Source of the DNA: Clostridiales bacterium
GTDB taxonomy: Bacteria > Bacillota > Clostridia > Christensenellales > CAG-138
NCBI GenBank assembly: GCA_012838425.1
Contig: DUPG01000014.1
Coordinates: 129,541-193,540, forward strand
Direction of reading: 5' to 3'
Length of the DNA stretch: 64,000 bases
This document shows positions 10,813-28,984 of the stretch, one piece after another (the stretch's first letter is position 1; every line of letters starts with the position of its first letter). A model generated the notes under the pieces. The model had not been told where the DNA came from and did not search any database. It was given only the letters and a program-made list of their open reading frames with translations. The position numbers and the translations under genes are program-made.

Positions 10813-13479
10813 TTATGATATGCTTAGCCAGTTAGTAGATGAATTTATACTCGAATCGGCAACAACCGTTACCTCGCAGGTCGCTTCAAAGAATCCGTAA
10901 TCGGTTACTACAAATGCGAGTGTGAATCCTACACTTCTGCCCGTAATTATACCGTTGTAGTCTATTGTAGCGATTGACGGGTCCTCAACTCCCCATGTAA
11001 CGCCCCTGTTGGTAGCATTAGTAGGTTCAAATATTGCGGACAGCTTGAACCTCTCGCCAACTCTCAGCGTAACCTTGGAAGGAGCTATCGATACGCCTTC
11101 AACGGGTATGAAGGGCGTAGGCGTCGGCTCAGGAGTAGGCGACGGCTTAGGCGTGGGCGTGGGGGTAGGCTTCGGCGTCGCTGTGGGTGTAGCCGACGGT
11201 TTTGGCGTAGGCGTGGGCGACGGCTTAGGTGTCGCTGTGGGTGTTGATGTAGGCTTATTAGTAGGTGTGGGAGTCGGCTTAGGTGTTGCCGTAGGTGTGC
11301 TTGAAGGCGTAGTTGTGGGACGCGGCGAACTCGTGCGCTGCGGAGTAGATGTTACCGAAGGCGTTTGAGTTTCAAGCGTCGGTGTAGGCTCCGGAGTAGG
11401 TGTGGGAACATCAGTCGGGTTTACCTCAATAGTCGGCTGTGGCTTAGGTGTGGGCAATACCACTCCCTTAGGCGCAAATGCAGCGTAAACCGTTACTATT
11501 CCGCTACAGGGCTGTTCGTTTGTAAACGCATAGCCGGTAGCGTTCTCTCCATAGCTCCAGCCTATGAAGGTCAACTCCTCGTCCTCCGGCGGCTTGGGAT
11601 TGCCGGGCATATTGTTGCCCAATGCCGTGTTCTCAAGCGTGCTCTTTATATCGTAAACCTCACCGTTGACCTTGAAAACTATAATAGCTCTCAAATCGGT
11701 GATGGTTTCAGACATTCGTATTCGTGCGTTCTGCAAAGCACTGCCCGAGCTTACGCTAAGCTCAACTGTTTGATTCGAAACAGCATTTCCCGGGGCTATG
11801 CTCTGCGATACTACACAGCCTACGAGCACTTCGTCGTTCTTTACATATTTAATATCGATTCTTACATTGTTTCGCTTTGCGACCTCATACGCCAAATCAA
11901 GGCGCATATACGATAAGTCAGGCATTATGCCTTGTTCGGAATACTCTGCACGCGCAATGTTTATCGAAACTACATCGCCTAACATTATTTCGCTTTCTGC
12001 AACCGGGGATTGCGAGGAAACGCTGCCGACCTCCGTAGAATCCACAGGCTCTGAACCTGTTATCAGCATAGTTAATCCGTTTTGATCAAGCGTTTGCTTA
12101 GCTTCTTCAATAGTCATTCCAACTATATTTGGAACAAGCGCAAGCTTTTTTTGCGAAGGAAGCAAATCAAATACGCCCAAAAGAAGCAAAGCAACAGCAA
12201 TCAGTATTATGCCAAAGAAGCTGATGACGCCAATTTTTACGCCAACAGGTATTGAGAGCCTTGTCTTGGCTGTGCTGTATCGCTTTGGCTGCGGTGCGGG
12301 CTTTTCCTTGATTGTCTTTGCCTTCTCCGCAATCTTTTTGAGCTGCATTTCCTGCCTATGCTCCTGCTCATAGCGCTTGTTTATAGCGGCTAATGATTCG
12401 TCCTCAGCCTCGCTGTCCGCCTCTTCGTCAAAAAGGCTCAACACCTCTTGGGGTGAAGGCTTTTTCTGTGAAGCGGCTGCAGCAGCTTGAGCAGCCTGCG
12501 ATACCCCTAAGAATATGCGCAAGGGCGCATCGTCAACTAATATCCTATACGACTCCTTGTCCTCAAAGTCCATCTGCTCTAAGAATTCGGCTACAGTTTC
12601 GATTCTCTCTTCGGGATACAAGCCCAATGCTTTTAGCAACACCTTTTCAGCGTACTTGGGAATATCCACATCCAAAGCAGACGGAGGAACTACTACATCG
12701 TCATATTCTCTTTCGGTTGCCAGCATAACCGGCTTGCCTGTAAGCATGAAATACAGCACGCAAGCCAATGAATATACATCTGATGTCTTTGTAATCTCCG
12801 AATCCTCATCGAAGTATTCGGCAGGCAGGTAGTTATTGTCTAACAGCTGCTTCGGGTCATCGGTATGATTCATTACTAAGTATTCGGTATCAAGCAGCAA
12901 TGAATCTGATTTCGGAGTCAATATTATGCTTTTGGGCGATAAGCTGCCGTAAAGCACTTCTTTTTCATGCAGCTTTTGTATGGCTTTTGCAGTACGAACA
13001 AATATGTGCATTGCCGCAGAATATGGCAATCTGCCTCTTTCTCTGATGAACTGCTGCAAGGTCTTGCCCTTTGAATACTGCTCAACCCAATAGAACTCAT
13101 CTTCTATCATGAAGTAGTCAGTATTAGGTATGTAATCGGGAATATCCTTCACCCTGTTTGTATGTGCTTCGGCGGATTCAAGCAGCTTATCCTTGTTAAG
13201 AAGCGCCTTGTAAAAATGCCTTGCCTTTTTCTTTTCAATGGCGCCTCTGATGATAACCTGTTTATCGTTTTTTGAGTCATACGCAATGTAACGCGTGCCA
13301 AGCTCGTCGGAAGCGATTTCGCAGCCCACAATATAGCGGTCCTTATGCTTAGTGCCTACGCGCATATTCGGATTCTTGTTCTCATAGGCGCCTTTCTTCA
13401 AACCGCATACTGGGCATACATCGCCTTCAACGGCTATATGCTCCATACAGCCCATACATAATCTCTTTGCTTCGCTCAT
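10813..13479 (-). CDS. Zinc-ribbon / pseudokinase / TM / PASTA / InlB-type repeat / Big2 membrane protein
   Basis: 888 aa from the ATG at 13479 (AGGAG 8 nt upstream; an in-frame GTG at 13488 is less likely). Order: zinc ribbon with C8-x2-C11 and C22-x2-C25; protein-kinase-like domain about 45-300; Ala/Lys-rich linker; one membrane helix about 413-435; two PASTA domains about 446-577; an InlB-type beta repeat about 600-665 (FIGWSYGENATGY); a Thr-Pro-rich stretch about 675-790; and a terminal Big2 domain. The kinase HRDxKPxN motif reads YGSLSPKS and DFG reads DTE, and the glycine loop and VAIK lysine are not recognisable, so it is probably catalytically dead. PASTA domains bind muropeptides in PrkC-type kinases. 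By inference it senses wall state. Confidence 0.88.
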   Translation of the reverse strand: MSEAKRLCMGCMEHIAVEGDVCPVCGLKKGAYENKNPNMRVGTKHKDRYIVGCEIASDELGTRYIAYDSKNDKQVIIRGAIEKKKARHFYKALLNKDKLLESAEAHTNRVKDIPDYIPNTDYFMIEDEFYWVEQYSKGKTLQQFIRERGRLPYSAAMHIFVRTAKAIQKLHEKEVLYGSLSPKSIILTPKSDSLLLDTEYLVMNHTDDPKQLLDNNYLPAEYFDEDSEITKTSDVYSLACVLYFMLTGKPVMLATEREYDDVVVPPSALDVDIPKYAEKVLLKALGLYPEERIETVAEFLEQMDFEDKESYRILVDDAPLRIFLGVSQAAQAAAAASQKKPSPQEVLSLFDEEADSEAEDESLAAINKRYEQEHRQEMQLKKIAEKAKTIKEKPAPQPKRYSTAKTRLSIPVGVKIGVISFFGIILIAVALLLLGVFDLLPSQKKLALVPNIVGMTIEEAKQTLDQNGLTMLITGSEPVDSTEVGSVSSQSPVAESEIMLGDVVSINIARAEYSEQGIMPDLSYMRLDLAYEVAKRNNVRIDIKYVKNDEVLVGCVVSQSIAPGNAVSNQTVELSVSSGSALQNARIRMSETITDLRAIIVFKVNGEVYDIKSTLENTALGNNMPGNPKPPEDEELTFIGWSYGENATGYAFTNEQPCSGIVTVYAAFAPKGVVLPTPKPQPTIEVNPTDVPTPTPEPTPTLETQTPSVTSTPQRTSSPRPTTTPSSTPTATPKPTPTPTNKPTSTPTATPKPSPTPTPKPSATPTATPKPTPTPTPKPSPTPEPTPTPFIPVEGVSIAPSKVTLRVGERFKLSAIFEPTNATNRGVTWGVEDPSIATIDYNGIITGRSVGFTLAFVVTDYGFFEATCEVTVVADSSINSSTNWLSIS
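11109..11454 (-). repeat. Low-complexity Thr/Pro-coding repeat
   Basis: Imperfect tandem repetition of short units such as GGCGTAGGCGTGGG (plus strand) encoding alternating TPTP, TPKP and SPTP units between the InlB-type repeat and Big2 domain. It makes the plus strand falsely open in a Gly/Val-rich frame. Likely length-variable by slippage. Confidence 0.8.
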
Positions 13480-13501
13480 GCAAATCACTCCTATAAAGGA
13501 A

Positions 13502-14582: not shown

Positions 14583-15197
14583 TCAACAGCAGGGAATTAA
14601 GTCGCCGCCCATAGCTTCACAGCAGCAGTCGGCGCAAATAAGTGCAGTGCATACATCGCAGGTCGAGCAGTCGTCGCCGCGAGATGCCCTGCCTCTTCTG
14701 CCGTATCCGCCGTAATCATATGTATAGGTGCGCGGATTCGACATAGTTTCATACGCTGTCCTGTATTGATAGTTGATTGGCTCCATTCTGTATGCCATTT
14801 CAAAATGGCTGTATGCCGCGTCGTGCATATTCAGCTTATAGCTAACAAGTCCATATAGATAGTGCCACCTTGCATTGTGAAAAGAGATTCTGTCAAGAGC
14901 TTGCTTTGCCATGAACAATTCGTTTCTCTGTATCATTTCTTCAATGCGTGAAAATTCGCTTGCGTACTCTCCTGTATAACTGCTATATTGCGAAGAAGAT
15001 GAGCTTGTGCTGCTCTGCTTCTTTGTAAGCATGTCGTACGCTTCGTTTATTTCCTTCATCTTCTCATTTGCTTCGTTCTCAAAGGGTGTGCTCTGATACC
15101 TGTCGGGATGGTACTTCTTCACAAGCTCTAAATATGCCCTGCGTATTTCTTCCTGCGTGGCGTTCTCGCTCACACCTAACACCTTGTATGGATTCAT
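14583..15197 (-). CDS. J-domain protein with cysteine-rich tail
   Basis: 204 aa. Residues 1-62 are a clear J-domain (NPYKVLGVSENATQEEIRRA, then the HPD motif in KKYHPDRYQ), which would stimulate an Hsp70 ATPase. There is no Gly/Phe region or DnaJ zinc finger. A serine-rich linker and TPR-like helical segment (about 85-160) lead to a Gly/Tyr/Arg patch and a terminal cysteine cluster (DDCSTCDVC, CADCCCEA and a final CC) that could bind metal or be acylated. The start overlaps the DUF5685 gene by 4 nt, indicating translational coupling. Confidence 0.9.
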   Translation of the reverse strand: MNPYKVLGVSENATQEEIRRAYLELVKKYHPDRYQSTPFENEANEKMKEINEAYDMLTKKQSSTSSSSSQYSSYTGEYASEFSRIEEMIQRNELFMAKQALDRISFHNARWHYLYGLVSYKLNMHDAAYSHFEMAYRMEPINYQYRTAYETMSNPRTYTYDYGGYGRRGRASRGDDCSTCDVCTALICADCCCEAMGGDLIPCC

Positions 15198-16096
15198 TTT
15201 TTCTCCTTGTCGATTTCGTTTTCTAATAATGGCGATTGCTTTTTCAAATCAAAAGCGTTTTTCTTAATTTTGCTGCTCTTACCTATGAGCCTATCCATCA
15301 TCTTATATAGTCCGTCATAAAAAATATTGTCTAAAATCTCCTTGTTTGCGTGCAGTTTCAGCAAATCATACGCAAGCACAGCCTCGTTTAATGCTAACTC
15401 CATAAGCGTTTTAGCGCGTTTACTGTCTATGCCGCACACCAACAATGGATTATAATTGCCTGATTTCCTGTCTTTCTCTCTGTCTATTTCAGCGTCAAGC
15501 AGGTATATCCATTTCCCGATATTATAGCTTATTGCCTCGCATTTTTTCAATTCATCGCAAGGTATTTCTTTGCTTGCACATACGCAGTTCTTCATAAGCT
15601 CGCCGAAAGTGTTAGCGGCTGTATCAATATCGGCGCACTTTTCCTTTTCAAGCGTATCCAATTCAGCTAAGCCGTTCTTTATCGCGCTGGCCGCTTCGGG
15701 ATACATCTTCTTAGCTTTTTTCGTTGCGCTCTTATACAATCCGTATGAAATACCCGCTAAAAGCTTTTTTTCGTCCTTCCAATCGTCTTTTAATTTGTAA
15801 TAAGCTAAAAGCACATTCACAGCAGCGCAGTAATTCATAATACTGCTTTGCTTGGCTATGGGAATTTTCTTGAAGGGCATATACAAGCACTTTCCCTGTT
15901 CGCAGCGCGGAGTGTCGCTCTCTTGCAATGCGGATAAGAAAATTGCCATAAATGTACAGTCGTAATTAAGCAAATACTGTGAGTGTATTCCAAAGGCTCT
16001 TTGTAATGTCCTGCACAAGCCGCAGTAGTACGCTTTATATAAAGCATAATCACACATACGCAAAAAAGGCTTGTAGGGCATAATATATCCAAACAT
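15194..16096 (-). CDS. DUF5685 family protein
   Basis: 300 aa. The N-terminus FGYIMPYKPFLRMCDYALYK followed by YYCGLCRTL is characteristic of DUF5685, a Clostridia family of unknown function. Conserved cysteines include CGLC near 28-31, Cys46 and a CEQGKC pair near 64-69. The rest is helical with many lysines and no membrane segment. It is first in an operon with the J-domain protein (4-nt overlap) and the membrane protein. A metal-binding or redox role is inference only. Confidence 0.85.
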   Translation of the reverse strand: MFGYIMPYKPFLRMCDYALYKAYYCGLCRTLQRAFGIHSQYLLNYDCTFMAIFLSALQESDTPRCEQGKCLYMPFKKIPIAKQSSIMNYCAAVNVLLAYYKLKDDWKDEKKLLAGISYGLYKSATKKAKKMYPEAASAIKNGLAELDTLEKEKCADIDTAANTFGELMKNCVCASKEIPCDELKKCEAISYNIGKWIYLLDAEIDREKDRKSGNYNPLLVCGIDSKRAKTLMELALNEAVLAYDLLKLHANKEILDNIFYDGLYKMMDRLIGKSSKIKKNAFDLKKQSPLLENEIDKEKK

Positions 16097-16491: not shown

Positions 16492-16953
16492 ATGAAAAAG
16501 GGAAATCAATCGCCCGAGCAGCAGGCGTACTTAGAAAAAGTCAAGCAATATGAACCAAAAAGCAATACATTTTCTCAATGCGTTAAGGCGTTTATAGTTG
16601 GCGGACTAATATGCTGCTTGGGTCAGCTGATATGGGATATTGGCAATAATATGTTCACATTCACCGAGTCGCAGAATTCGGGCTTTACTTCAATAGTGCT
16701 CATATTCTTAGGCGCCTTGTTCACAGGAATAGGCATTTACGATAAGCTTGGCAGCTTCGCCGGCGCAGGCTCAATAGTGCCTATTACAGGCTTTTCTAAT
16801 GCGATAGTTTCCACCGCTATGGAGCATAAGCGCGAGGGCTATGTTTTAGGCGTCAGCGCAAAGATGTTCTTAATAGCCGGGCCGGTGCTTGTATATGGCA
16901 TTAGCGCGTCTGTCGTGTTAGGAATAGTCTATTTTCTTTTCGGAATAGCGTAA
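16492..16953 (+). CDS. spoVAC: Stage V sporulation protein AC
   Basis: 153 aa integral membrane protein with about four helices. The segments SQCVKAFIVGGLICCLGQLI, GIGIYDKLGSFAGAGSIVPI and GFSNAIVSTAMEHKREG are family-diagnostic. SpoVAC is a mechanosensitive channel component in the spore inner membrane that moves Ca-dipicolinate into the forespore and out at germination. Followed by spoVAD after 8 nt. Confidence 0.96.
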   Translation: MKKGNQSPEQQAYLEKVKQYEPKSNTFSQCVKAFIVGGLICCLGQLIWDIGNNMFTFTESQNSGFTSIVLIFLGALFTGIGIYDKLGSFAGAGSIVPITGFSNAIVSTAMEHKREGYVLGVSAKMFLIAGPVLVYGISASVVLGIVYFLFGIA

Positions 16954-16961
16954 GGAGGCAT

Positions 16962-18014
16962 ATGAACTCGAAAAGATGCGGAAGTCAATCTGTCATATTT
17001 CCGACTAATCCAAAAATATTAAGCACAGCAACCATAGTGGGCGATGTTGAGGGGCAGGGACCCATAGGCAAGCATTTCGATTTGGTGCTTGAGGACGATA
17101 CTTGGGGCGAGGATAGCTGGGAAAAAGCCGAGCGCAAGATGTTCGAGCACTCTGTAAGGCTTGCCTGCAACAAGTGTAATATTGCCCCCGAGAGCTTGGA
17201 TTGCATGCTGGGCGGCGATATACTCAATCAGCTTATTTCCGCGAACTTTGCGGCGCGTGCAATAAAAGCGCCATTCCTGGGGCTGTACGGGGCTTGCTCC
17301 ACAATGGTAGAGGCAATGCTTATAGGCGCTATGCTTATAGACGGCGAATACGCCTCAACCGTAAGCGCAACCGCATGCAGCCACTTTTCCACAGCTGAAA
17401 GGCAGTATCGCTCTCCGCTTGAATTAGGCGGGCAGCGTCCTCCGACAGCGCAGCGCACAGTAACTGGCGCAGGCACGGCAATATTAGTTTCAGATGAGTA
17501 TCAGCATAATAATGAAAGCACTCATGAGCTGTTCAATAATATAGTTATTTCAGCCGGCACAATAGGCAAGGTAATTGATTTAGGAGTGAAAGACGCCAAC
17601 AATTTAGGCGCTGCTATGGCTCCCGCCGCGGCGGATACCATACAGGTTCATCTCAACGATTTCAACAAGACAGTTGATGATTTCGACCTTATAGTAACAG
17701 GCGATTTGGGCAGTCTTGGCTCTGAACTGCTCAATGAGCTGTGCAAAGAAAAGAATATAGACCTTAAAGACAAGCATATCGATTGCGGAAATACAATTTT
17801 CAGCAAGGACCAGAATGTAGATTGCGGCGGAAGCGGCTGCGGCTGCTGCGCTGTTACATTTTGCGGTTACTTGATTAAGCGTTTGGAAGCAGGGGATATT
17901 AACAACATACTATTTGTCGCGACAGGCGTACTGTTAAGTCCCGATACCACATTGCAAGGCGATACAATACCCTCAATAGCGCACGCGGTAGTGATAGAAA
18001 GGAGAGTATCATGA
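16962..18014 (+). CDS. spoVAD: Stage V sporulation protein AD
   Basis: 350 aa with a thiolase-like fold: GLYGACSTMVEAMLIGAML, SATACSHFSTAERQYRSPLE, RTVTGAGTAILV and DCGGSGCGCCAVTFCGYL. SpoVAD binds dipicolinic acid on the spore inner membrane and works with SpoVAC and SpoVAE. Strong AAGGAGG before the ATG. It overlaps spoVAE by 4 nt. Confidence 0.96.
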   Translation: MNSKRCGSQSVIFPTNPKILSTATIVGDVEGQGPIGKHFDLVLEDDTWGEDSWEKAERKMFEHSVRLACNKCNIAPESLDCMLGGDILNQLISANFAARAIKAPFLGLYGACSTMVEAMLIGAMLIDGEYASTVSATACSHFSTAERQYRSPLELGGQRPPTAQRTVTGAGTAILVSDEYQHNNESTHELFNNIVISAGTIGKVIDLGVKDANNLGAAMAPAAADTIQVHLNDFNKTVDDFDLIVTGDLGSLGSELLNELCKEKNIDLKDKHIDCGNTIFSKDQNVDCGGSGCGCCAVTFCGYLIKRLEAGDINNILFVATGVLLSPDTTLQGDTIPSIAHAVVIERRVS

Positions 18015-18379
18015 GCGATTTTTCACAATATTTATGGGTATTTATAGTCGGCGGAGCAATCTGCGTAATTGGGCAGCTTCTTCTATCTTATACGAAGCTC
18101 ACATCTGCAAGAATACTCGTAATATTCGTAACTGCCGGCGTAGTGCTTACAGCGTTAGGGCTATACAGACCACTGGTTGAGTTGGCGGGCGCAGGCGCGA
18201 CAGTACCATTAACGGGCTTTGGATACTCCTTAGCTAAAGGCGTAAAGGAAGCAGTCAGGCAATCAGGCCTATTAGGTGCTTTCACCGGCGGCACTATGGC
18301 AACAGCAGGCGGTATAGCAGCCGCAGTATTCTTCGGTTACATAATATCAATAATTTTTACGCCTAAAACGAAAAAGTAG
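18011..18379 (+). CDS. spoVAE: Stage V sporulation protein AE
   Basis: 122 aa with three to four hydrophobic helices; GATVPLTGFGYSLAKGVKEA is typical of SpoVAE(b) and mirrors the SpoVAC motif. It completes the C-D-E trio that is the minimal clostridial spoVA set. The stop lies only 2 nt from the stop of the convergent NlpC/P60 gene, with no terminator between. Confidence 0.95.
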   Translation: MSDFSQYLWVFIVGGAICVIGQLLLSYTKLTSARILVIFVTAGVVLTALGLYRPLVELAGAGATVPLTGFGYSLAKGVKEAVRQSGLLGAFTGGTMATAGGIAAAVFFGYIISIIFTPKTKK

Positions 18380-18381
18380 AA

Positions 18382-20091
18382 TTAGCTTACGGTTTCGTAT
18401 GCAATAGAGCTGCTTGTGCCGCACACATAAATATAGGGACGCCCATAGAAAGCTATTGACCATCTGCCCGTACCCGATTCTCCCCATGCCATGCGCAGCA
18501 CAACCTTACCTACATTGTATGACGATTCGATATAGTATCGCGTGCCGTTAATAGTACCTACGAACATTGCCACATGGTGTATTTCCATAAACCTTCCGCA
18601 TGAGCAGTAATTATCTGTGAAGAATATGAGGTCGCCCGGAATAAGCACTTCTTTTGCCAGCATACCATTAAGATTCAAACAGAATTCGCCCTGCTTTTCA
18701 GAGGTGCGCGGTAGCTTTACGCCCAAAGGCGAATACGCCTTCTGCATAGCCGCAGAGCAGTCAAGCTGGCCCACGCCGGTTCCATAGGGCGTACCTAACA
18801 GCGTAAACGCGTTCATAACCGCATGAGAGCCAATTTCGCTTTCGTTCAGAGAATTCAGGTAGTTGAGTATGGCTTGTCTTTGCTCTGCGCCTAATTGCGA
18901 GGTGCCGGAATTATACGCATTGCCTGCTAATACCGAATCCGTAGCCCCCATGAAGAAGCTGCCCATAAACAGCGTTTCTTCGGGGTTCCCGTCTGTCGTT
19001 ACATTCAGCACAAGCGTTTTCTTGCCATACGAAAGCGTGCCGAATGCAAGCAGGTTATTCAAGCAATCAGCTTCTCCGTTATTCAGAGTATAAAGCAGTA
19101 CATTATCGTCAGCAGAAAATTCTTTTTCAGCGAATATCTCTAATTCATTAAAGTAGTTGTAAACATCTATGCGCACTTTGGTTATAGGCGCAACCGCGCA
19201 TATATCGCCCGCAATATCATATGGTTTGCCGTATTGCAGTATTTTATCATCTGATGGCAGCGTATAGTTTTCGAGCTCCACATTCCCCGTAGGCGGATTT
19301 GTAGGAATAGGCGTTGGGGTAGGCGTTGGCGTAGGCACAGGTGTTTCTGTGGGTGCGGGTGTTTCCGTAGGCGCTTCCGTAGGTGTTGCCATATTGCCTG
19401 TAACTAATTGCAGATAGCATGAACCAACTGTTGATATGTCCGCGCTGCAAACGAGCAGATTATACACCCCGGACTCATACACGAAGAACTCTAATCTTGA
19501 AAAAGCATCGTCGCCGCCGTCATCATTAGCCGCGAACATATTGTATTTAGAGTCCATCAGAAACAGTATAGTATCTACAGGCATATTCTTGAAGGTCGTT
19601 TCAAAAACTGCCCATTTTCCTGCTATCAGGTTAACGCTGAAGCCCACAGCGTAGCAGGTTGTACCAAAAGGATTTGTAACTGTGTATGAGGTGTATTCGC
19701 TTAAATCTATCTCTATTAAGTCGCCCAATGAAGCGGGCTTGTATTCGATTTTATTGTAGTTTTCATTTGTTGATATTATATTAAGCGGTTCTGCGGCGAA
19801 CTCCGATACGCCTATAAGGTATCTAAGTATAAGCATAGCGTCGCCCGAGTTTATTTTATCGTCGCCATTAACATCAGCGGCTAATTCGCCGTAAAAGCCA
19901 AGCTTGCGCAAGCCGATGCTATATTGCAAAATGACGATGCTGTCACCTGTGTTGACTTTCCCATCACAGTTAGCATCGCCAAGCTGTAAATCTATATCGA
20001 GTTTTGCGTTAGTTACGGGCATGGAAACAAGCAGCACCATAATTGCAAGCATGATTGAAAAAGCAGTTTTTAGGCGCATTAGCTTACCCAT
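18382..20091 (-). CDS. Secreted dockerin / PPC-like / NlpC-P60 peptidase
   Basis: 569 aa. Signal peptide 1-29; two type I dockerin repeats at about 37-95 (GDANCDGKVNTGD and ADVNGDDKINSGD calcium loops); a PPC-like beta domain about 135-232 (AANDDGGDDAFSRL); a Thr-Pro linker about 236-268; a beta domain about 272-385 shared with the next gene; and C-terminal NlpC/P60 about 425-555, with Cys445 (LDCSAAM) and His505/506 (EIHHVAMFVG). NlpC/P60 enzymes cut muropeptide stems. The dockerin is N-terminal rather than C-terminal. A CSCG motif sits just ahead of the catalytic histidine. Forms a tandem pair with the upstream paralogue, 12 nt apart. Confidence 0.93.
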   Translation of the reverse strand: MGKLMRLKTAFSIMLAIMVLLVSMPVTNAKLDIDLQLGDANCDGKVNTGDSIVILQYSIGLRKLGFYGELAADVNGDDKINSGDAMLILRYLIGVSEFAAEPLNIISTNENYNKIEYKPASLGDLIEIDLSEYTSYTVTNPFGTTCYAVGFSVNLIAGKWAVFETTFKNMPVDTILFLMDSKYNMFAANDDGGDDAFSRLEFFVYESGVYNLLVCSADISTVGSCYLQLVTGNMATPTEAPTETPAPTETPVPTPTPTPTPIPTNPPTGNVELENYTLPSDDKILQYGKPYDIAGDICAVAPITKVRIDVYNYFNELEIFAEKEFSADDNVLLYTLNNGEADCLNNLLAFGTLSYGKKTLVLNVTTDGNPEETLFMGSFFMGATDSVLAGNAYNSGTSQLGAEQRQAILNYLNSLNESEIGSHAVMNAFTLLGTPYGTGVGQLDCSAAMQKAYSPLGVKLPRTSEKQGEFCLNLNGMLAKEVLIPGDLIFFTDNYCSCGRFMEIHHVAMFVGTINGTRYYIESSYNVGKVVLRMAWGESGTGRWSIAFYGRPYIYVCGTSSSIAYETVS

Positions 20092-20103
20092 TCATGCCCT
20101 CCA

Positions 20104-21276
20104 TCAGTTATACGGACGCGCACAGCAATCTATCTGCCATTTACCTCCGTTTGCTCCCCAAATATCCCTTATTACCACTTTATATAAGCTGCTCGTGGAT
20201 TCAATAAGGTACATTACGCCGTCAACCTCTCCCAAGTATATAGCGGAGTGGTGAATGTCGTGGTATCTGTCGCAGCCACAATCCGTTCTGCGCATAAACA
20301 CCAAGTCGCCCGGCTGAAGCTCTGAAAAGTCTATTAGCATATCGTTGTCTGCACAATACTTTGCTTGGTCAGCCGAAATTCTTGGAAGCGTAATGCCCAC
20401 AGCGTTCAAATATGTTGCGCGAACGAATCCGCTGCAATCGTATTCCGAATAGCTCTTGCCTAAGTAGTTCACCGCAAAGCCAACTATCATTTTGCCAGTG
20501 TCTGAAACCGTATCGTAGGAGTTTAACAGGTTAAGTATCTTATTAGTTGTTGCCGCGCTTATTTTGTCAGCCTCGTCATATACATTTCCGTATAGCTCTA
20601 TGAATGAAAAGCCCATAGTAAAGTAGCTTGTATATACTGTGATTTTCGGGTCAAGCTTAGTAGCGCAGGTCAATTCTAAGCGCTTCTTGCCAGCCGAAAG
20701 AGATGAAAACTTCACGCGCTTGTTCAAAGAGTGTGAAGCGCCATTGACATCGTAGCTGTATACTCCAATCGGGAAATATACGGACTCATCGATTTCTGTT
20801 ACACTGGTATTTACATCAGTAATCTTTATAGTAACACTGGTTATAGGCACGCCGGAGGTTATTTCAGCATTAAGGCTGTAAGGCTTGTTAAGCGGAAGGC
20901 GCGTGCCGGACTTTGGCAATGTGTAGTTTTTAAGCGCTACCATGCGGTGCTGCTCTGATACTACCGGAAGCTCGGTAATCAAGCCGGTTATATAGCGCAA
21001 AATAATAGATACATCTGCAGTATTTACCTTATTGTCGCAGTTTACATCAGAATTTATAAGCTGAATAGCCTGCAGCTTAGCAAGCCCGTTGCAGTATCGC
21101 ATAAGCAGCGATAAGTCAAGAAGGCTCACCTTGCCGTCAAGATTTGCGTCGCCATATACAACAGTATATCCGGAAAGAACATTGTCTGGGTTTGCGTTCG
21201 CGGTGGTAAAAACCGCAGAAAAAATAGTGATTACAGCCACAAACACAGCACAAAGCTTTGTATAGCGTTTTCTCAT
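20104..21276 (-). CDS. Secreted dockerin / NlpC-P60 peptidase, paralogue
   Basis: 390 aa. Signal peptide 1-28; dockerin repeats about 41-103 (GDANLDGKVSLLD and SDVNCDNKVNTAD); a beta domain about 112-225 whose KNYTLPKSGTRL opening parallels ENYTLPSDDKIL in the downstream paralogue; NlpC/P60 about 262-388, with Cys281 (YDCSGFVRA) and His342/343 (DIHHSAIYLG). A CGCD motif replaces the neighbour's CSCG at the same place. It lacks the PPC-like domain and Thr-Pro linker. First gene of the pair. Likely cell-wall or cellulosome-associated; no cohesin is seen in the window. Confidence 0.93.
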   Translation of the reverse strand: MRKRYTKLCAVFVAVITIFSAVFTTANANPDNVLSGYTVVYGDANLDGKVSLLDLSLLMRYCNGLAKLQAIQLINSDVNCDNKVNTADVSIILRYITGLITELPVVSEQHRMVALKNYTLPKSGTRLPLNKPYSLNAEITSGVPITSVTIKITDVNTSVTEIDESVYFPIGVYSYDVNGASHSLNKRVKFSSLSAGKKRLELTCATKLDPKITVYTSYFTMGFSFIELYGNVYDEADKISAATTNKILNLLNSYDTVSDTGKMIVGFAVNYLGKSYSEYDCSGFVRATYLNAVGITLPRISADQAKYCADNDMLIDFSELQPGDLVFMRRTDCGCDRYHDIHHSAIYLGEVDGVMYLIESTSSLYKVVIRDIWGANGGKWQIDCCARPYN

Positions 21277-22807: not shown

Positions 22808-24463
22808 TTAACCCTCAAACGATGAAACCGAAGTACCGCCGCGCCTATCATCATATGCGGAGAATACTCTCTTCAGCTTGGGCGAATATCCCACCGCTGC
22901 TATGCTGCCGAAGTACGCTGCGTCATCTCTGCGTATGAAGTAGTAATTCACTTCCTTTAATTCAACATTGGTTATAAGCGGGAAGAACTCTCTCTCCTCA
23001 ACAACAATGGTGTTGTGGTTCTTGCTGAAAACTCTGCCCTTAAATATCGCTTCCTGTAAATCCGTACCGAACTTTAAGTAATCTATAAGCACAGGCACGA
23101 GAATTTTGGGTATGTTGTTTCCGCCCGGAGTGCCTATTGACAGTATAAAGCCGTCATCTCCGCGTATAATCACGGGAGAGCAGTATGTTCTTGGAGTTTT
23201 GCCATAGTCCGATTGGTTTATTCCGCTTGAAGCAAAATGCTTGCAGGTGTCATTCATATAAATGCCCGCAACATGCTTTCTTGAACCCCAGAATGACGAC
23301 AGCGTATTAGTCGAAGAAACCACCATGCCGTTTTCATCAATAATAGTGAAGTGCGTAGTGCTTACATGCTCATAATCGTCGCTTAAATCTACATAGTCCA
23401 TATTCAGAAGCTCTGCAATATGGTCGGCTGAAACAAGGTATTGCTGGTCTATTTCCGTGAAATCGGGGTCAGCTATTCTATCTATCCTATCTGTATATGC
23501 GCGCGAGGTTATCTCATACAGCTGGTCTAAATATGTAACGGGGTTTTCGCCGGGGTTGGCAATATCCAATGCCTCTGCCATTCTCAGCATTTGAATAATT
23601 GTTATGCCGGCAAACGGAGCGGGTGCTGAAGCAATCTCATACCCCATAAAGTCGGATATTACGGGGTTAGTCTTGTGCACGCTGTATGAAGCCAAGTCCT
23701 GCATAGTAATATCTGCGCCCTGCATATTGGCTATTTGCTCCGCAATTTCACCTCTGTAGAAAGCGTCTGCGCCCTTTTCAGCCAATATACGAATAGTTTC
23801 GGCCAATTCGGGCTGGTACAGTATATCGCCCTGTTCAAGCCTGTTGCCATTTTCGTCGTAAAAGTTTTTGTTATCCTTCAGATTAGCCCATGCTACTCTT
23901 ATGCGAACCTCTAAGTCCTCAGTAACCTCTGTGCCGTTCTGCGCATATTCGATTGCAGGCGCAACCAATGCGGAGAAATCGACCGAGGCATAGTCGTTAT
24001 ACACCTCATACAAGCCCTTCACAAAGCCGGGAACGCCTATGTAGTTTCTTGATACCTTTGAGGTGAAGCGCATAGTCGGGAAGTAGTCGTAGAATGCATA
24101 TTCATTTTCAGCGGGGTTGTATAAAAGCAAGCAGCCGCCGCCTCCAAGACCCGACGCGTATGGCTGAACAACCGCCAATGTGTACGCGACGGCAATAGCC
24201 GCGTCAACAGCGTTCCCGCCAGCCTCTAATATCTTCATGCCTACCTGTGTAGCTATTTTATTAGATGTGCTAACCGCGTATGTATGAGTAGAAGCATTTA
24301 TCATGCTTCCTATCGGTGTTGACGAAGGTGAAACATCTATATCTAATGGTCCGTCGTTATTGGGGAGCCAATTACAAGCAGTCGAAGCAAATAGCATCAA
24401 CAAAAGCATTGCAAAAGCAATAAATCGCTTCGGTAAAGAATCAGCCCTTGTTTTTATGCGCAT
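22808..24463 (-). CDS. Gamma-glutamyltransferase-like lipoprotein, CapD-type
   Basis: 551 aa. Lipoprotein signal with lipobox ASTAC near residue 30. The Ntn-hydrolase GGT fold is clear: EAGGNAVDAAIAVAYTLAVV, SGLGGGGCLLLY, and STTHFTIID, where the first Thr of TTHF is the self-processing nucleophile. Relative to E. coli GGT, Asn411, Asp433 and the Ser462-Ser463 pair appear as Ser, His and Thr-Tyr (TLSSFWG, CKHF, RTYCSP). It follows pgsB-pgsC-pgsA, the place of CapD, which cleaves poly-gamma-glutamate and anchors it to peptidoglycan. It has its own promoter. Inference: processes or anchors the polymer. Confidence 0.87.
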   Translation of the reverse strand: MRIKTRADSLPKRFIAFAMLLLMLFASTACNWLPNNDGPLDIDVSPSSTPIGSMINASTHTYAVSTSNKIATQVGMKILEAGGNAVDAAIAVAYTLAVVQPYASGLGGGGCLLLYNPAENEYAFYDYFPTMRFTSKVSRNYIGVPGFVKGLYEVYNDYASVDFSALVAPAIEYAQNGTEVTEDLEVRIRVAWANLKDNKNFYDENGNRLEQGDILYQPELAETIRILAEKGADAFYRGEIAEQIANMQGADITMQDLASYSVHKTNPVISDFMGYEIASAPAPFAGITIIQMLRMAEALDIANPGENPVTYLDQLYEITSRAYTDRIDRIADPDFTEIDQQYLVSADHIAELLNMDYVDLSDDYEHVSTTHFTIIDENGMVVSSTNTLSSFWGSRKHVAGIYMNDTCKHFASSGINQSDYGKTPRTYCSPVIIRGDDGFILSIGTPGGNNIPKILVPVLIDYLKFGTDLQEAIFKGRVFSKNHNTIVVEEREFFPLITNVELKEVNYYFIRRDDAAYFGSIAAVGYSPKLKRVFSAYDDRRGGTSVSSFEG

Positions 24464-24578: not shown

Positions 24579-25742
24579 TTATCCAAGCTCTATATACAGC
24601 CTTGAATCCTTTATTGTGTACGAATCATCAGCCATATACTTTGTAAGCGTGGTGAAGATTCTGTTTGTATATAGCTTATTCGTAGTCGGCTCAGGAATTC
24701 CTGAATTTATCCTCAAGGGCACTATTTCGACGGTTATTTTGCTTTCAGTGTCCATAGTCAAGTTAAGCGCTATACTGTCGCAGGTGCGCGAATTCGCAGA
24801 GTCGAATATAAAGCTGCCCAAGCTGTAAACTATAAGACCATTTCTGTACTTCTCCATAGGAAGAACCACGCGCGGATTAGTGCCCACAACTATGGTTGCA
24901 CCGGCGTCAATAAGCGTTTGTCCAAGCTTGCGCATAGCCTCTGTGTTTGTGAGCATATACTCGTATCCCCAGTCAACATACACCACGACTATATCGCATT
25001 TTTCGCGCGCGTTGTTTACTATAAGCGTTGTATTAGCGTTTTTTGACGACGCAACACCCTTTTGACCCTCTCTTGCGGCATAGTCCTTGGGGAAGCCCTG
25101 CACCATGCCTATTATGCCGACAGACCTTCCGTTCGCTTCAATTTTCTTATACGCGCCTGCTTCTATATTATCATAGCCAGCACCTACATAGCTTATTTCA
25201 AGCGATTCCAAGGTCTCAAATGCCTCTGCCAAAGCTTCAATGCCTAAGTCGGCTATATGGTCGTTAGCTAAAGAAACTACATTTATGCCTGCGTTCTTTA
25301 TATGCTCTATGTTTTTCGCTTCTGTATATTGGTATGAATACTTGTCGCGCTTGGGATAGTCCTTAACATCGCCCGTTATAATTGCCATATCAAGATTAGC
25401 CATTACTATATCCGAATCCTTTATCAAGTCCGCGGTAGGTATGAAAAGCTTGTCATAGCCAACAGTATCGCCAAGCTTTGCAATGTTTCTGCCGAATACA
25501 ATATCTCCGAAGAATGTCAGCTTGAGATTCGGGTCATTTTCCGCGATAGTGGTATCGTGCGGAGCAGCGGTTTGCTTCTTTAATCCGCTTATTGCTACGC
25601 TTGAGGAAATTATAAGCGTGATAAGCAGTATAGCCGCAATAACCAAGGGCAATACAAGAAGCCGCCTATGCTTTTCAACTACATAGGCTAAAACCCTGTC
25701 TCTCAGCGGCATTTTTGAACGCCCTGCGTTTGCCTTTTCCAT
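24579..25742 (-). CDS. pgsA: PgsA/CapA family poly-gamma-glutamate export protein
   Basis: 387 aa from the ATG at 25742, which has AAGGAG 8 nt upstream; the in-frame GTG at 25751 overlaps that SD. A basic N-terminus and one membrane helix (about 29-50) precede the CapA metallophosphatase-like domain: LTFFGDIVFGR, SDIVMANLDMAI, VVSLANDHIADLG, VVYVDWGYEY and VGTNPRVVLP. CapA/PgsA is needed for polymer transport outside the cell. Third gene of the pgsBCA set, 12 nt after pgsC. Confidence 0.92.
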   Translation of the reverse strand: MEKANAGRSKMPLRDRVLAYVVEKHRRLLVLPLVIAAILLITLIISSSVAISGLKKQTAAPHDTTIAENDPNLKLTFFGDIVFGRNIAKLGDTVGYDKLFIPTADLIKDSDIVMANLDMAIITGDVKDYPKRDKYSYQYTEAKNIEHIKNAGINVVSLANDHIADLGIEALAEAFETLESLEISYVGAGYDNIEAGAYKKIEANGRSVGIIGMVQGFPKDYAAREGQKGVASSKNANTTLIVNNAREKCDIVVVYVDWGYEYMLTNTEAMRKLGQTLIDAGATIVVGTNPRVVLPMEKYRNGLIVYSLGSFIFDSANSRTCDSIALNLTMDTESKITVEIVPLRINSGIPEPTTNKLYTNRIFTTLTKYMADDSYTIKDSRLYIELG

Positions 25743-25754
25743 ACTACGCACTCC

Positions 25755-26207
25755 TTAATACATCAAGTAGATAATGTTCATGAGTCCGAATACTACTAAG
25801 GTTACTATGAATGACGACGCAACCGTTATCGGAATTCCCTGCTTTGAGTACGCGTTTGCCAACAGACCGGGAACAATAACACCTATGCCCCTGAAAGCAA
25901 GCGTCGCGAAAGGAAGCATGGGATAGCACAGGTCGAATATCAGCTTAAATGCCATAGCTATTAAAAGCGTGCTCACGAACTTGCGTCTGCCGAACAGTAT
26001 TACAAAGCGCGGCAGTACGAATTCGACTACAACATATGTCAGCATACTGATTAGGTAGACTGCAACGAGTAAAAGCGGCTGGTCGAAAACCAGTGCCAAG
26101 TAGCCGGGAACCACAACGCCGCCTACCAATACTCCGAAAAACTCCTCAGCTAAAAAACTGCAAGTCAGTCCTAAAATAATTGAAATGTATAAGTCTGTTA
26201 CCTGCAT
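25755..26207 (-). CDS. pgsC: Poly-gamma-glutamate biosynthesis protein PgsC/CapC
   Basis: 150 aa, the usual size, with about four to five helices. ISIILGLTCSFLAEEFFGVL and VGGVVVPGYLAL are the family hallmark. It forms the membrane synthase complex with PgsB. Separated from pgsB by 3 nt. Confidence 0.94.
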   Translation of the reverse strand: MQVTDLYISIILGLTCSFLAEEFFGVLVGGVVVPGYLALVFDQPLLLVAVYLISMLTYVVVEFVLPRFVILFGRRKFVSTLLIAMAFKLIFDLCYPMLPFATLAFRGIGVIVPGLLANAYSKQGIPITVASSFIVTLVVFGLMNIIYLMY

Positions 26208-26210
26208 AAT

Positions 26211-27458
26211 CTAATTCCTTTCACTACCTGTTTCGTTATTGTCCTCTGTATTATCTGATAGCGCATTGCTTTCTGAAGCCTTGCTGCTGTTTAACAGCTT
26301 GTCTAACAATATTTCGCCATGTCCATGAATATTGCCCGCACAGAAAATAATTCTGTCGTCCATCACATTTTCAAGCGCTTTTGCTATAGTATCCACATCT
26401 GCGCGTTCGAAGTTGCGATATTCAACAACATTCTTCAGCTTGCCATTGTTGAATGCTCTTGTAATCGGGTGAGTGTTTTCGCCTATAACAAACAGCGTCG
26501 CATTTGGAATCTTGTCCAAAAAGTCGTTTGCGAACTGGCGTGTTCTGTCCACTCTGTCGGGGCGGGCGTTGAATAGAACTATCGGATTATCAGTAGGAAG
26601 CGTGCCCAAATCGACTAAGCGCTTCCAAATCTCGTATGTTGAATGTGGCTCATTCGCCGCAAAAGCGTTTATAATAGTCGCTTTATGTGAATTGTATTCA
26701 AACGGTATTATCTGCATAGCTCCCGGGTCAGGATGTGCCTTCAACAGTCCGCGCAGCGCCACTTCTCTGTCAATGCCCAGCAGCTCCGCCACAGCTAATG
26801 GCATTGCGCAGTTGTTGGGGAATACGAAGTAGTTGAACTTGTCCAAAAAGCCTTCGGGAATTTTGCTCTCGTCAGCCACTATTACTTTTGCGTTGTATTT
26901 CTTGGCTTCCTGCTTGAAAAACTCGGTGAATTCGCAGTCGGGAACGATAACAGTTCCGTTTACGGGAATTGTGCGTGAAAAAGCGTATGCAATCTGCTTT
27001 GTTGTAGGACCCATAACATCTAAATGGTCCTCCAACACATTAGCGATAATGGTTATGTTAGACTTCAAAATGTCGTGCTGATATACCTGCTGCAACTGCG
27101 GCTCAACTGCCATACATTCGCAAACCAATGCGTCTGCGCCCATTTTTACGGCTTTTCTGATTACGCGCACCTGCTCAACAATGTTAGGACCGCGCTTTCC
27201 TCTCTGAATCTTGAACTCCTCGTCCGTATTCCAGTAAATCATGCGCGCGGCTGTGCCGGTGGTCTTCGCTATAACCTTGTAGCCCGCTTCTTTAAGAACG
27301 GCGCAGGTCATACGCGTAATAGTTGACTTTCCGCGAATGCCGTTTACATTTATGCGTATTTTCAGCTTTTCGACATTCCTGTCATTATTCCGTTTTTCTA
27401 TAATGCCCAATGTTATTAAAACACATAAGCATACAAGCGTTACAATTAACTCTAACAT
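26211..27458 (-). CDS. pgsB: Poly-gamma-glutamate synthase PgsB/CapB
   Basis: 415 aa. N-terminal membrane helix (3-19), then a Mur-ligase-like ATP-dependent amide ligase core with the P-loop VNGIRGKSTITRM, the ECMAVEPQLQ segment and NVLEDHLDVMGPT, all diagnostic of PgsB/CapB. It polymerises glutamate through gamma-carboxyl links. First gene of the operon, with a good promoter 60-90 nt upstream. Together with pgsC and pgsA it makes a complete synthesis and export set. Confidence 0.95.
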   Translation of the reverse strand: MLELIVTLVCLCVLITLGIIEKRNNDRNVEKLKIRINVNGIRGKSTITRMTCAVLKEAGYKVIAKTTGTAARMIYWNTDEEFKIQRGKRGPNIVEQVRVIRKAVKMGADALVCECMAVEPQLQQVYQHDILKSNITIIANVLEDHLDVMGPTTKQIAYAFSRTIPVNGTVIVPDCEFTEFFKQEAKKYNAKVIVADESKIPEGFLDKFNYFVFPNNCAMPLAVAELLGIDREVALRGLLKAHPDPGAMQIIPFEYNSHKATIINAFAANEPHSTYEIWKRLVDLGTLPTDNPIVLFNARPDRVDRTRQFANDFLDKIPNATLFVIGENTHPITRAFNNGKLKNVVEYRNFERADVDTIAKALENVMDDRIIFCAGNIHGHGEILLDKLLNSSKASESNALSDNTEDNNETGSERN

Positions 27459-27854: not shown

Positions 27855-28984
27855 TTAGTCAACAATGTGTTTCAATATAGCAATCACATCACCTGTGTTG
27901 ACTTTCAAATCCTTGTTAATGTCGGCTTTTTCTACTAATGCTGGGTCGAATTCCTCAAAGTCAGCACAATACCTTAAAAGCAAAACAGCATCGCCTGTGT
28001 TCTCTAAATTGTCAAAGTTCAAGTCAAATGGTTGTTCGGTGTAGTATGTTTCGTTAAATACAACCCTGTCAAGTGCATAGGTGTTTTCGTCGCACTTTGC
28101 TCTAATAAGTTCACCGTCCACCACGCGTACAATATCGAATAGATAAAGTTCCTGGTCGTCATACGTTTCTTCGGCAAAAGCAATCAAATCGCCTTGCTTT
28201 GAATACTTTCTGTATGAGAGACCCACATCGAAGCCTTGAAAACACTCGACATATAGATTTCCACTATTATCGACGCCAAGAGGTGTTATGCCTATATGTC
28301 CAGGAATAACGTACTCGTTTGTGCCGAACTTAATTGTATTGGTATTTGTTTCTTCGTTGTACTCGTTTGTGTATAAGTTATCTGCAAGTATAAACGTAGA
28401 GTGTTCGGTGTCAAAAGCCCAAACTTCGTCGTTTTCATCATAAGAAGTAAAAACAATATATTCATCAATATTCAGAGAGCCTCTGCCTGAATAGCTAAAA
28501 ACACCCTCTGGTATTTCGTGCTTAACCACTTCCTCGGTTTCCAAATCATACTCGCAAAGTGTATAGTCATTGGTCAGCACATACAGCCTGCCACTATTAA
28601 CAATTATAGCTGAAACACCAGATTTACTATCAGAAAAAACTTCCGCAGGGATTGTGAGAATGTACTTGCCATCTGAAGAATACTGAACGATAGGTGATGG
28701 GTCATCGTAAGTATCCACAACCAAAACATCACCGTTTGGTAATATGTCATAGCTTGATGGACCACCGTCGGGTTCGGGGTTGGAACCTGGGTCGCCTATT
28801 GTAGTGAGACCAATTGACAGCTCTCCTTCTTCATCTCATACTGGAATTTCGATAATGTTTTCCAAAGCATAGCTTTGCCCCTGTTCAAAAACAGTCTCTG
28901 CTTGAACGCCAATAGGTTGTGCCGTCAAAATAAGGGCAAATGCAATAAGCAGCGCCATTATTTTTTTGTAAAAAGGTTTTTCAT
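27855..28984 (-). pseudogene. Decayed secreted protein with C-terminal dockerin
   Basis: An ATG at 28984 with AGGAGG upstream starts a signal-peptide-like sequence MKNLFTKK that meets TAA after an A-run; one base of shift joins it to a continuation starting IMALLIAFALILTAQ. A second lesion is an in-frame TGA at 28836-28838. The rest is open (about 290 codons): a beta-rich propeller-like region with repeated short strands (NSGRLYVLTNDYTLCEYDL) and, at the C-terminus, two dockerin-like repeats (ENTGDAVLLLRYC, ADINKDLKVNTGD). The SD and terminator survive. TGA serves as a normal stop elsewhere in the window, so recoding is unlikely. Confidence 0.8.

Follow-up and report, generated by a model that had tools for sequence, protein, structure and literature searches.

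Tandem dockerin-bearing NlpC/P60 proteins as candidate scaffold-held peptidoglycan endopeptidases in a Clostridiales genome

The window examined here is a 64,000-nucleotide stretch of a Clostridiales genome (assembly GCA_012838425.1, contig DUPG01000014.1, positions 129,541 to 193,540). On its reverse strand lie two adjacent open reading frames (ORFs): ORF B (20104..21276, 390 amino acids), the first gene of the pair, and ORF A (18382..20091, 569 amino acids), located 12 bp downstream. The initial annotation had described tandem paralogues at 18382-21276, each with a type I dockerin at the N-terminus and a P60 domain at the C-terminus. Both genes were verified at these coordinates, and both domains exceed their Pfam cut-offs in each protein. 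On balance, we favor the view that A and B are secreted NlpC/P60 cysteine endopeptidases that cut the γ-D-Glu bond of peptidoglycan stem peptides while held by their dockerins to a surface cohesin. The separate parts of such a system, including dockerin-P60 proteins, are known. What appears to be new is a frame held in common with M15 enzymes and a cysteine/histidine mark that looks undescribed.

Architecture and conservation of the gene pair

ORF B encodes a signal peptide, a dockerin (residues 41-96), a β-sandwich module (112-225), and an NlpC/P60 domain (236-390). The same parts recur in ORF A, which has a signal peptide, a dockerin (37-92), the β-sandwich module (270-385), and an NlpC/P60 domain (398-553). 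The signal-peptide-like N-termini of both proteins were read by eye. Between its dockerin and module, ORF A carries an extra domain (residues ~120-235) and a Pro/Thr linker. The orthologous protein A' from G022, a genome of another genus, has this domain too (44% over 99 residues), with a PPC score of 17.8 bits that falls below the cut-off of 25.9. In the model of ORF A it matches a subtilase with a Z score of 7.9 by structural comparison, and we tentatively call it PPC-like.

The NlpC/P60 domains, including the cysteine inserts discussed below, span 18433..18900 in A and 20107..20571 in B, both on the reverse strand. Matches to NLPC_P60 (PF00877, MEROPS family C40) cover residues 433-524 of A (34.4 bits) and 271-351 of B (51.3 bits), where the Pfam cut-off is 23 bits. 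In the AlphaFold2 model of ORF B, values of the predicted local distance difference test (pLDDT) are mostly 89-97 in the P60 domain and 68 in the insert block. The model of ORF A has a mean pLDDT of 68.3, with most of the P60 domain above 90 and the insert block at 81. Structural comparison pairs the P60 model of B best with 7cfl (Z 17.4, 119 residues, 1.8 Å) and that of A with 6bim (Z 17.1, 127 residues, 2.4 Å), and these fold matches are peptidoglycan endopeptidases. A Foldseek search with B gave two matches at E ≤0.001. The 7cfl structure, the catalytic domain of the Clostridium difficile autolysin Acd24020, is also the best PDB profile match, but it differs from A and B in having no cysteine insert in the alignment and no dockerin in the solved chain.

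The catalytic cysteines proposed earlier, Cys445 in A and Cys281 in B, are confirmed by alignment, as are their partners His506 and His343. A polar third residue (Glu522 in A and Glu359 in B) was placed by alignment only. A, B, and both orthologues from G022 all retain the cysteine, the histidine, and the tyrosine of the GxxY motif.

Among 103 family genomes, matches to the whole module-plus-P60 arrangement are found only in the genome studied here and in G022, with two in each. The order of B followed by A is maintained in G022 with 19 bp between the genes, and both A' and B' score above the dockerin and P60 cut-offs. The P60 domains are 48% identical between A and A' and 47% identical between B and B', while A-type and B-type domains share 34-43% identity. 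In a tree of P60 domains, A groups with A' (99/94), and B groups with B' (100/85). Judged from these sequence relationships, the gene pair is old. It has no match in G001 (86% complete, 360 contigs), the one additional member of the genus among the genomes seen. Scans for promoters and terminators gave results at chance level.

The cysteine/histidine cluster

Each P60 domain carries a C-x-C insert (Cys496/Cys498 in A and Cys333/Cys335 in B) that lies 8-10 residues ahead of the catalytic histidine, as the initial annotation had pointed out. Two other conserved residues had been missed. One is a third cysteine upstream of the insert, in the preceding helix (Cys471 in A and Cys308 in B), and the other is a histidine immediately ahead of the catalytic one (His505 in A and His342 in B). 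The cysteine pattern of the pair is not due to chance, because it is present in both G022 orthologues and because at least two cysteines occur between the GDLVF strand and the catalytic histidine in 42 of 77 parsed domains from a comparison set that was gathered by similarity to A and B and is not a random sample. This set holds 79 distinct P60 domains of at least 110 residues, two of them unparsed. For these counts the class of ORF A was set by hand, and L193, in which the parser called an upstream cysteine, was treated as ordinary.

All 42 insert-bearing domains have a histidine directly before the catalytic histidine (HH). Soon after an insert cysteine, each also has a Lys/Arg with an aromatic residue or Glu next in the chain, and the presumed third residue is acidic (33 Glu and 9 Asp) at a position that is mostly His in ordinary relatives. 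The HH pair and the acidic residue are not exclusive to the insert branch, since they occur in 5 and 11, respectively, of the 35 domains that lack the insert.

The third cysteine is found in more than one place. Two-cysteine inserts make up 30 of the 42 and are accompanied by the helix cysteine in all but two cases (L271 and L221). In the 12 domains with three-cysteine inserts, the helix cysteine is missing from nine and present in three that form one clade. Five clade members have the helix cysteine with no insert cysteine, and one has it with a single insert cysteine. The P60 tree requires only two changes to explain the three-cysteine type that lacks the helix residue, and a single change with one origin is also compatible. 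Thus, the idea of a moving third cysteine ligand would rest on one or two relocations. A stronger claim of covariation was rejected on these grounds, and L271, L221, and the five sequences with a helix cysteine and no insert cysteine are further evidence against it. The fork between the two cysteine-bearing groups is weak, and the tree does not settle whether the insert had a single origin.

Cys308, Cys333, Cys335, and His342 (B numbering) are suggestive of a putative Cys3His structural metal site, because the third cysteine is found either in the nearby helix or, after relocation, in the insert itself. A disulfide between the two insert cysteines is disfavored, since C-x-C is a strained spacing for such a bond and the third cysteine argues for a site with at least three ligands.

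The insert is not confined to the tandem pair. It marks a branch of P60 domains that includes enzymes of conjugative elements, which many insert carriers resemble. Five of these proteins (L107, L108, L110, L111, and L112) are like A and B in having a C-x(1-2)-C insert, HH, Glu, and the helix cysteine, but they have no dockerin, carry a large N-terminal region, and adjoin a TraG/VirB4-type ATPase; the neighbor of L108 and L110 matches a TraG P-loop (VirB4-type) domain. Other insert carriers are secreted Big_2 proteins (L109, L113, L117, and L253). A dockerin was found in none of six further insert-type P60 proteins scanned, and the insert was therefore rejected as a feature of dockerin enzymes. 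The cluster is a plain and testable mark on a P60 branch that is also found in conjugative elements.

A regular expression for the insert recovered none among the 80 general P60 loci of genome contigs in the matches listed, and these same loci served as outgroup and model alignment. The insert is likewise absent in the five alignments viewed from among 41 PDB sequences that match the P60 profile. The DNA motif had no matches in viral contigs, where the A4 query found six loci, with at most 40% identity across the greater part of its length. Searches of plasmids and phages with tblastn returned 17 and 10 records, respectively, all with less than 60% identity. An open-access literature search yielded no report of a cysteine cluster in NlpC/P60 proteins, although this search was mostly at the level of titles and so leaves absence unproven.

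Dockerins, cohesins and the shared module

Dockerin_1 (PF00404) matches span residues 37-92 of ORF A (19816..19983, reverse strand; 36.3 bits) and 41-96 of ORF B (20989..21156, reverse strand; 42.8 bits). Both exceed the gathering cut-off of the profile, 22.9 bits, and all four calcium loops retain Asp, Asn, Asp, and Asp at positions 1, 3, 5, and 12. At positions 10 and 11, the two repeats read TG and SG in A and LL and TA in B. In the 23 of 25 genome dockerins whose positions could be parsed, TG is found at this site in 19 first repeats and 20 second repeats, and B is the sole dockerin without a glycine at position 11 in either repeat. Because LL and TA take the place of the TG found in most dockerins of this genome, B may have a cohesin partner different from that of the others.

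There are 26 Dockerin_1 matches in this 1.48 Mb genome, and 25 of the ORFs that bear them were scanned with Pfam, the remaining one being cut by a contig end. The assumption that dockerins normally tether glycanases does not suit this genome, where none of the 25 scanned ORFs has a glycoside hydrolase match. Domains on the other dockerin ORFs include subtilase, transglutaminase core, cleaved-adhesin, AhpC/TSA, RCC1, LRR_5, Big_2, and Listeria-Bacteroides repeats. The genome search for cohesins that the initial annotation had proposed picked out a lipoprotein (L039) and a subtilisin (S8) with a C-terminal hydrophobic tail (L040), both scoring above the cut-off. Cohesins also occur together with dockerins in L045, which is over the cut-off (32.3 bits), and in L041, which is just under it (22.6 versus 24.1 bits). 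This is not the makeup of a cellulosome, as there is no dockerin-borne glycanase and at most two cohesin-like domains were seen per protein. Of 14 chosen family genomes, this one included, ten contain between 20 and 54 dockerin matches along with 2 to 10 for cohesin; in the remaining four there are 0-2 dockerins and a single cohesin match per genome. Where a genome is rich in dockerins but carries no glycanase on them, one must ask what purpose cohesin-dockerin scaffolds serve beyond the degradation of plant fiber.

Several individual dockerin or cohesin proteins of this genome were noted as well. The subtilisin (L040:1662-6863, contig C25) combines PA and Fn3-like domains with two cohesin-like domains and the hydrophobic C-terminal tail, and by its domain content it may itself serve as a scaffold. 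An adaptor-like protein (L041:4965-6224, contig C30) has two cohesin-like domains, a Listeria-Bacteroides repeat, and a dockerin. A third protein (L034:3998-5998, contig C27) has a lipoprotein-like start and unites RCC1 repeats and a dockerin with a sortase-like domain that scores 24.4 bits against a cut-off of 26.6. An AhpC/TSA-Redoxin protein with a C-terminal dockerin (L049:3996-5039, contig C8) represents a thioredoxin-type protein for a scaffold. The window itself has a third dockerin ORF (27855-28724, reverse strand) that begins with TTG just upstream of pgsB. It scores 22.3 bits alone (cut-off 22.9) and 25.6 bits in the genome search, and G001 has a dockerin-like ORF at the same place near pgsB.

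The β-sandwich module of ~115 residues that A and B share between dockerin and P60 domain escaped the initial annotation. A profile search of the 103 family genomes found 17 further proteins that have this module but no P60 domain; 14 of them were fetched and 10 scanned. All 10 have a C-terminal Peptidase_M15_4 domain over the cut-off, and the four unscanned proteins have the same C-terminal motif by eye. Three of the 10, from two other genera of the family (L235, L237, and L241), also carry an N-terminal dockerin. These proteins are like A and B in their signal and dockerin N-termini, their module, and their C-terminal peptidoglycan peptidase, but the catalytic domain is M15 rather than P60. 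Therefore, the P60 pair and the dockerin-M15 proteins define a dockerin-module-wall peptidase frame with two unrelated catalytic folds, which provides one testable answer to the question of scaffold purpose. In the model of ORF A, the module resembles domain 3 of GbpA (Z 9.4, 96 residues), a weak lead on its role that may reflect a shared Ig-like fold.

A dockerin on a peptidoglycan hydrolase is not as unusual as had been supposed, because precedents from Ruminococcus flavefaciens are published. According to the published report (PMC3573020), RflaF_05439 (PDB 4EZY) is likewise secreted and joins NlpC/P60-fold modules to a dockerin, and its binding to the surface cohesin ScaE is mentioned there as unpublished. 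It is unlike A and B in having two modules per chain, a C-terminal dockerin with an X module, a Cys-His-Gln triad, and a P60 kinship that is invisible in sequence. A table of R. flavefaciens dockerin proteins (PMC2930009) includes a VanY protease and a carboxypeptidase.

Substrate and genomic neighborhood

A and B would be secreted by way of their signal peptides, and their N-terminal dockerins would engage a cohesin located on the cell surface. Candidate partners are the cohesin lipoprotein, the transmembrane-tailed subtilisin with cohesin-like domains, and the cohesin-dockerin adaptors. The middle module probably helps keep each enzyme on the wall, where the P60 domain would cleave the γ-D-Glu bond of stem peptides, and Cys308, Cys333, Cys335, and His342 (B numbering) could hold a structural metal and thereby shape the substrate cleft. 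Peptidoglycan is favored as the substrate because of the M15-borne module, the conjugative P60 relatives, and the fold matches. NlpC/P60 enzymes of proven activity are described as γ-glutamyl DL-endopeptidases in PMC3573020. The scaffold-held hydrolase proposed in the initial annotation thus stands as the best reading, strengthened by the cohesins of the genome and the M15-associated module, and the predicted activity on peptidoglycan is drawn from sequence and predicted fold.

Some observations weigh against this assignment. The presumed third catalytic residue is Glu where ordinary relatives usually have His, and the dockerin of B departs from the TG code of the genome. The function of the module is inferred, and the GbpA domain 3 that it resembles has a common Ig-like fold. 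The cell's own wall and that of another cell are indistinguishable as targets from sequence, and genes for poly-γ-glutamate synthesis (pgsBCA-GGT) adjoin the pair.

These neighbors are all on the reverse strand, 1.5 to 6 kb upstream of the pair. They comprise pgsB (26211-27458; 474 bits, cut-off 222.7), pgsC (25755-26207; 115 bits, cut-off 96.45), a pgsA-like gene (24579-25751; PGA_cap 178.8 bits, cut-off 27), and a GGT-like lipoprotein gene (22808-24463; GGT 280.6 bits, below its cut-off of 357.85). A and B could then be poly-γ-glutamate depolymerases that work with pgsBCA-GGT as PgdS (YwtD) does in Bacillus subtilis, an explanation we consider unlikely. PgdS is an NlpC/P60 endo-γ-glutamyl peptidase (PMC5880399) and shares the fold and poly-γ-glutamate context of the pair, but it has three P60 domains and no dockerin. 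Both pair-bearing genomes also have pgsB, pgsC, pgsA, and GGT, and with pgsB over the cut-off in 8 of 61 relatives, these two included, there is a weak co-occurrence of pgsB and the pair among related genomes. However, agcS on the other strand separates the pair from the pgs cluster, and the linkage is not conserved: the genes adjoin in this genome (G000), whereas in G022 they are on different contigs and the pair has other neighbors, and G001 has pgsBCA with no match to the pair. Moreover, the module rides on M15 peptidases, and the genomes that encode the three dockerin-M15 proteins yielded no PgsC.

It is less probable still that A and B target foreign peptidoglycan or wall fragments that have been shed, as part of a scavenging or antagonistic secreted complex. 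Dockerin proteins that carry subtilase, transglutaminase-like, cleaved-adhesin, and LRR domains would suit such an outward-facing set, but own and foreign walls cannot be separated in sequence. We give little credence to the notion that the P60 domains, their active site altered, serve for binding or as protein peptidases. Throughout the insert branch, Glu or Asp occupies the presumed third position, and protease activity was not demonstrable for the R. flavefaciens dockerin-borne P60-like module, which has a modified catalytic cysteine (PMC3573020). Nevertheless, the cysteine, histidine, and GxxY tyrosine are intact in A, B, and both orthologues, and the same source indicates that the superfamily permits acidic third residues.

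A broader and more doubtful extension of the scaffold-held endopeptidase reading concerns the whole insert branch, which takes in lysins of conjugative elements, secreted enzymes of Ig type, and the dockerin enzymes described here. The branch might have gained the metal site (three cysteines and the neighboring histidine) together with the acidic third residue, such that metal occupancy or redox state could switch a peptidoglycan hydrolase. The family would then dock such enzymes and M15 peptidases on cohesin scaffolds to act on the bacterial wall, not the plant wall.

The genes spoVAC, spoVAD, and spoVAE (16492-18379, forward strand) converge on the pair, and all score over their cut-offs, placing sporulation genes in a small genome. 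A sporulation role for the pair found no support, as spoVA genes were not among its neighbors seen in G022. Two other reverse-strand features of the window were noted by eye. A kinase-like protein (10813-13488) combines a cysteine-rich ribbon at its N-terminus with PASTA-like repeats, an extended Pro/Thr region, and an Ig-like end. A J-domain protein (14583-16096) has a very cysteine-rich tail and overlaps a cysteine-rich ORF of 300 amino acids.

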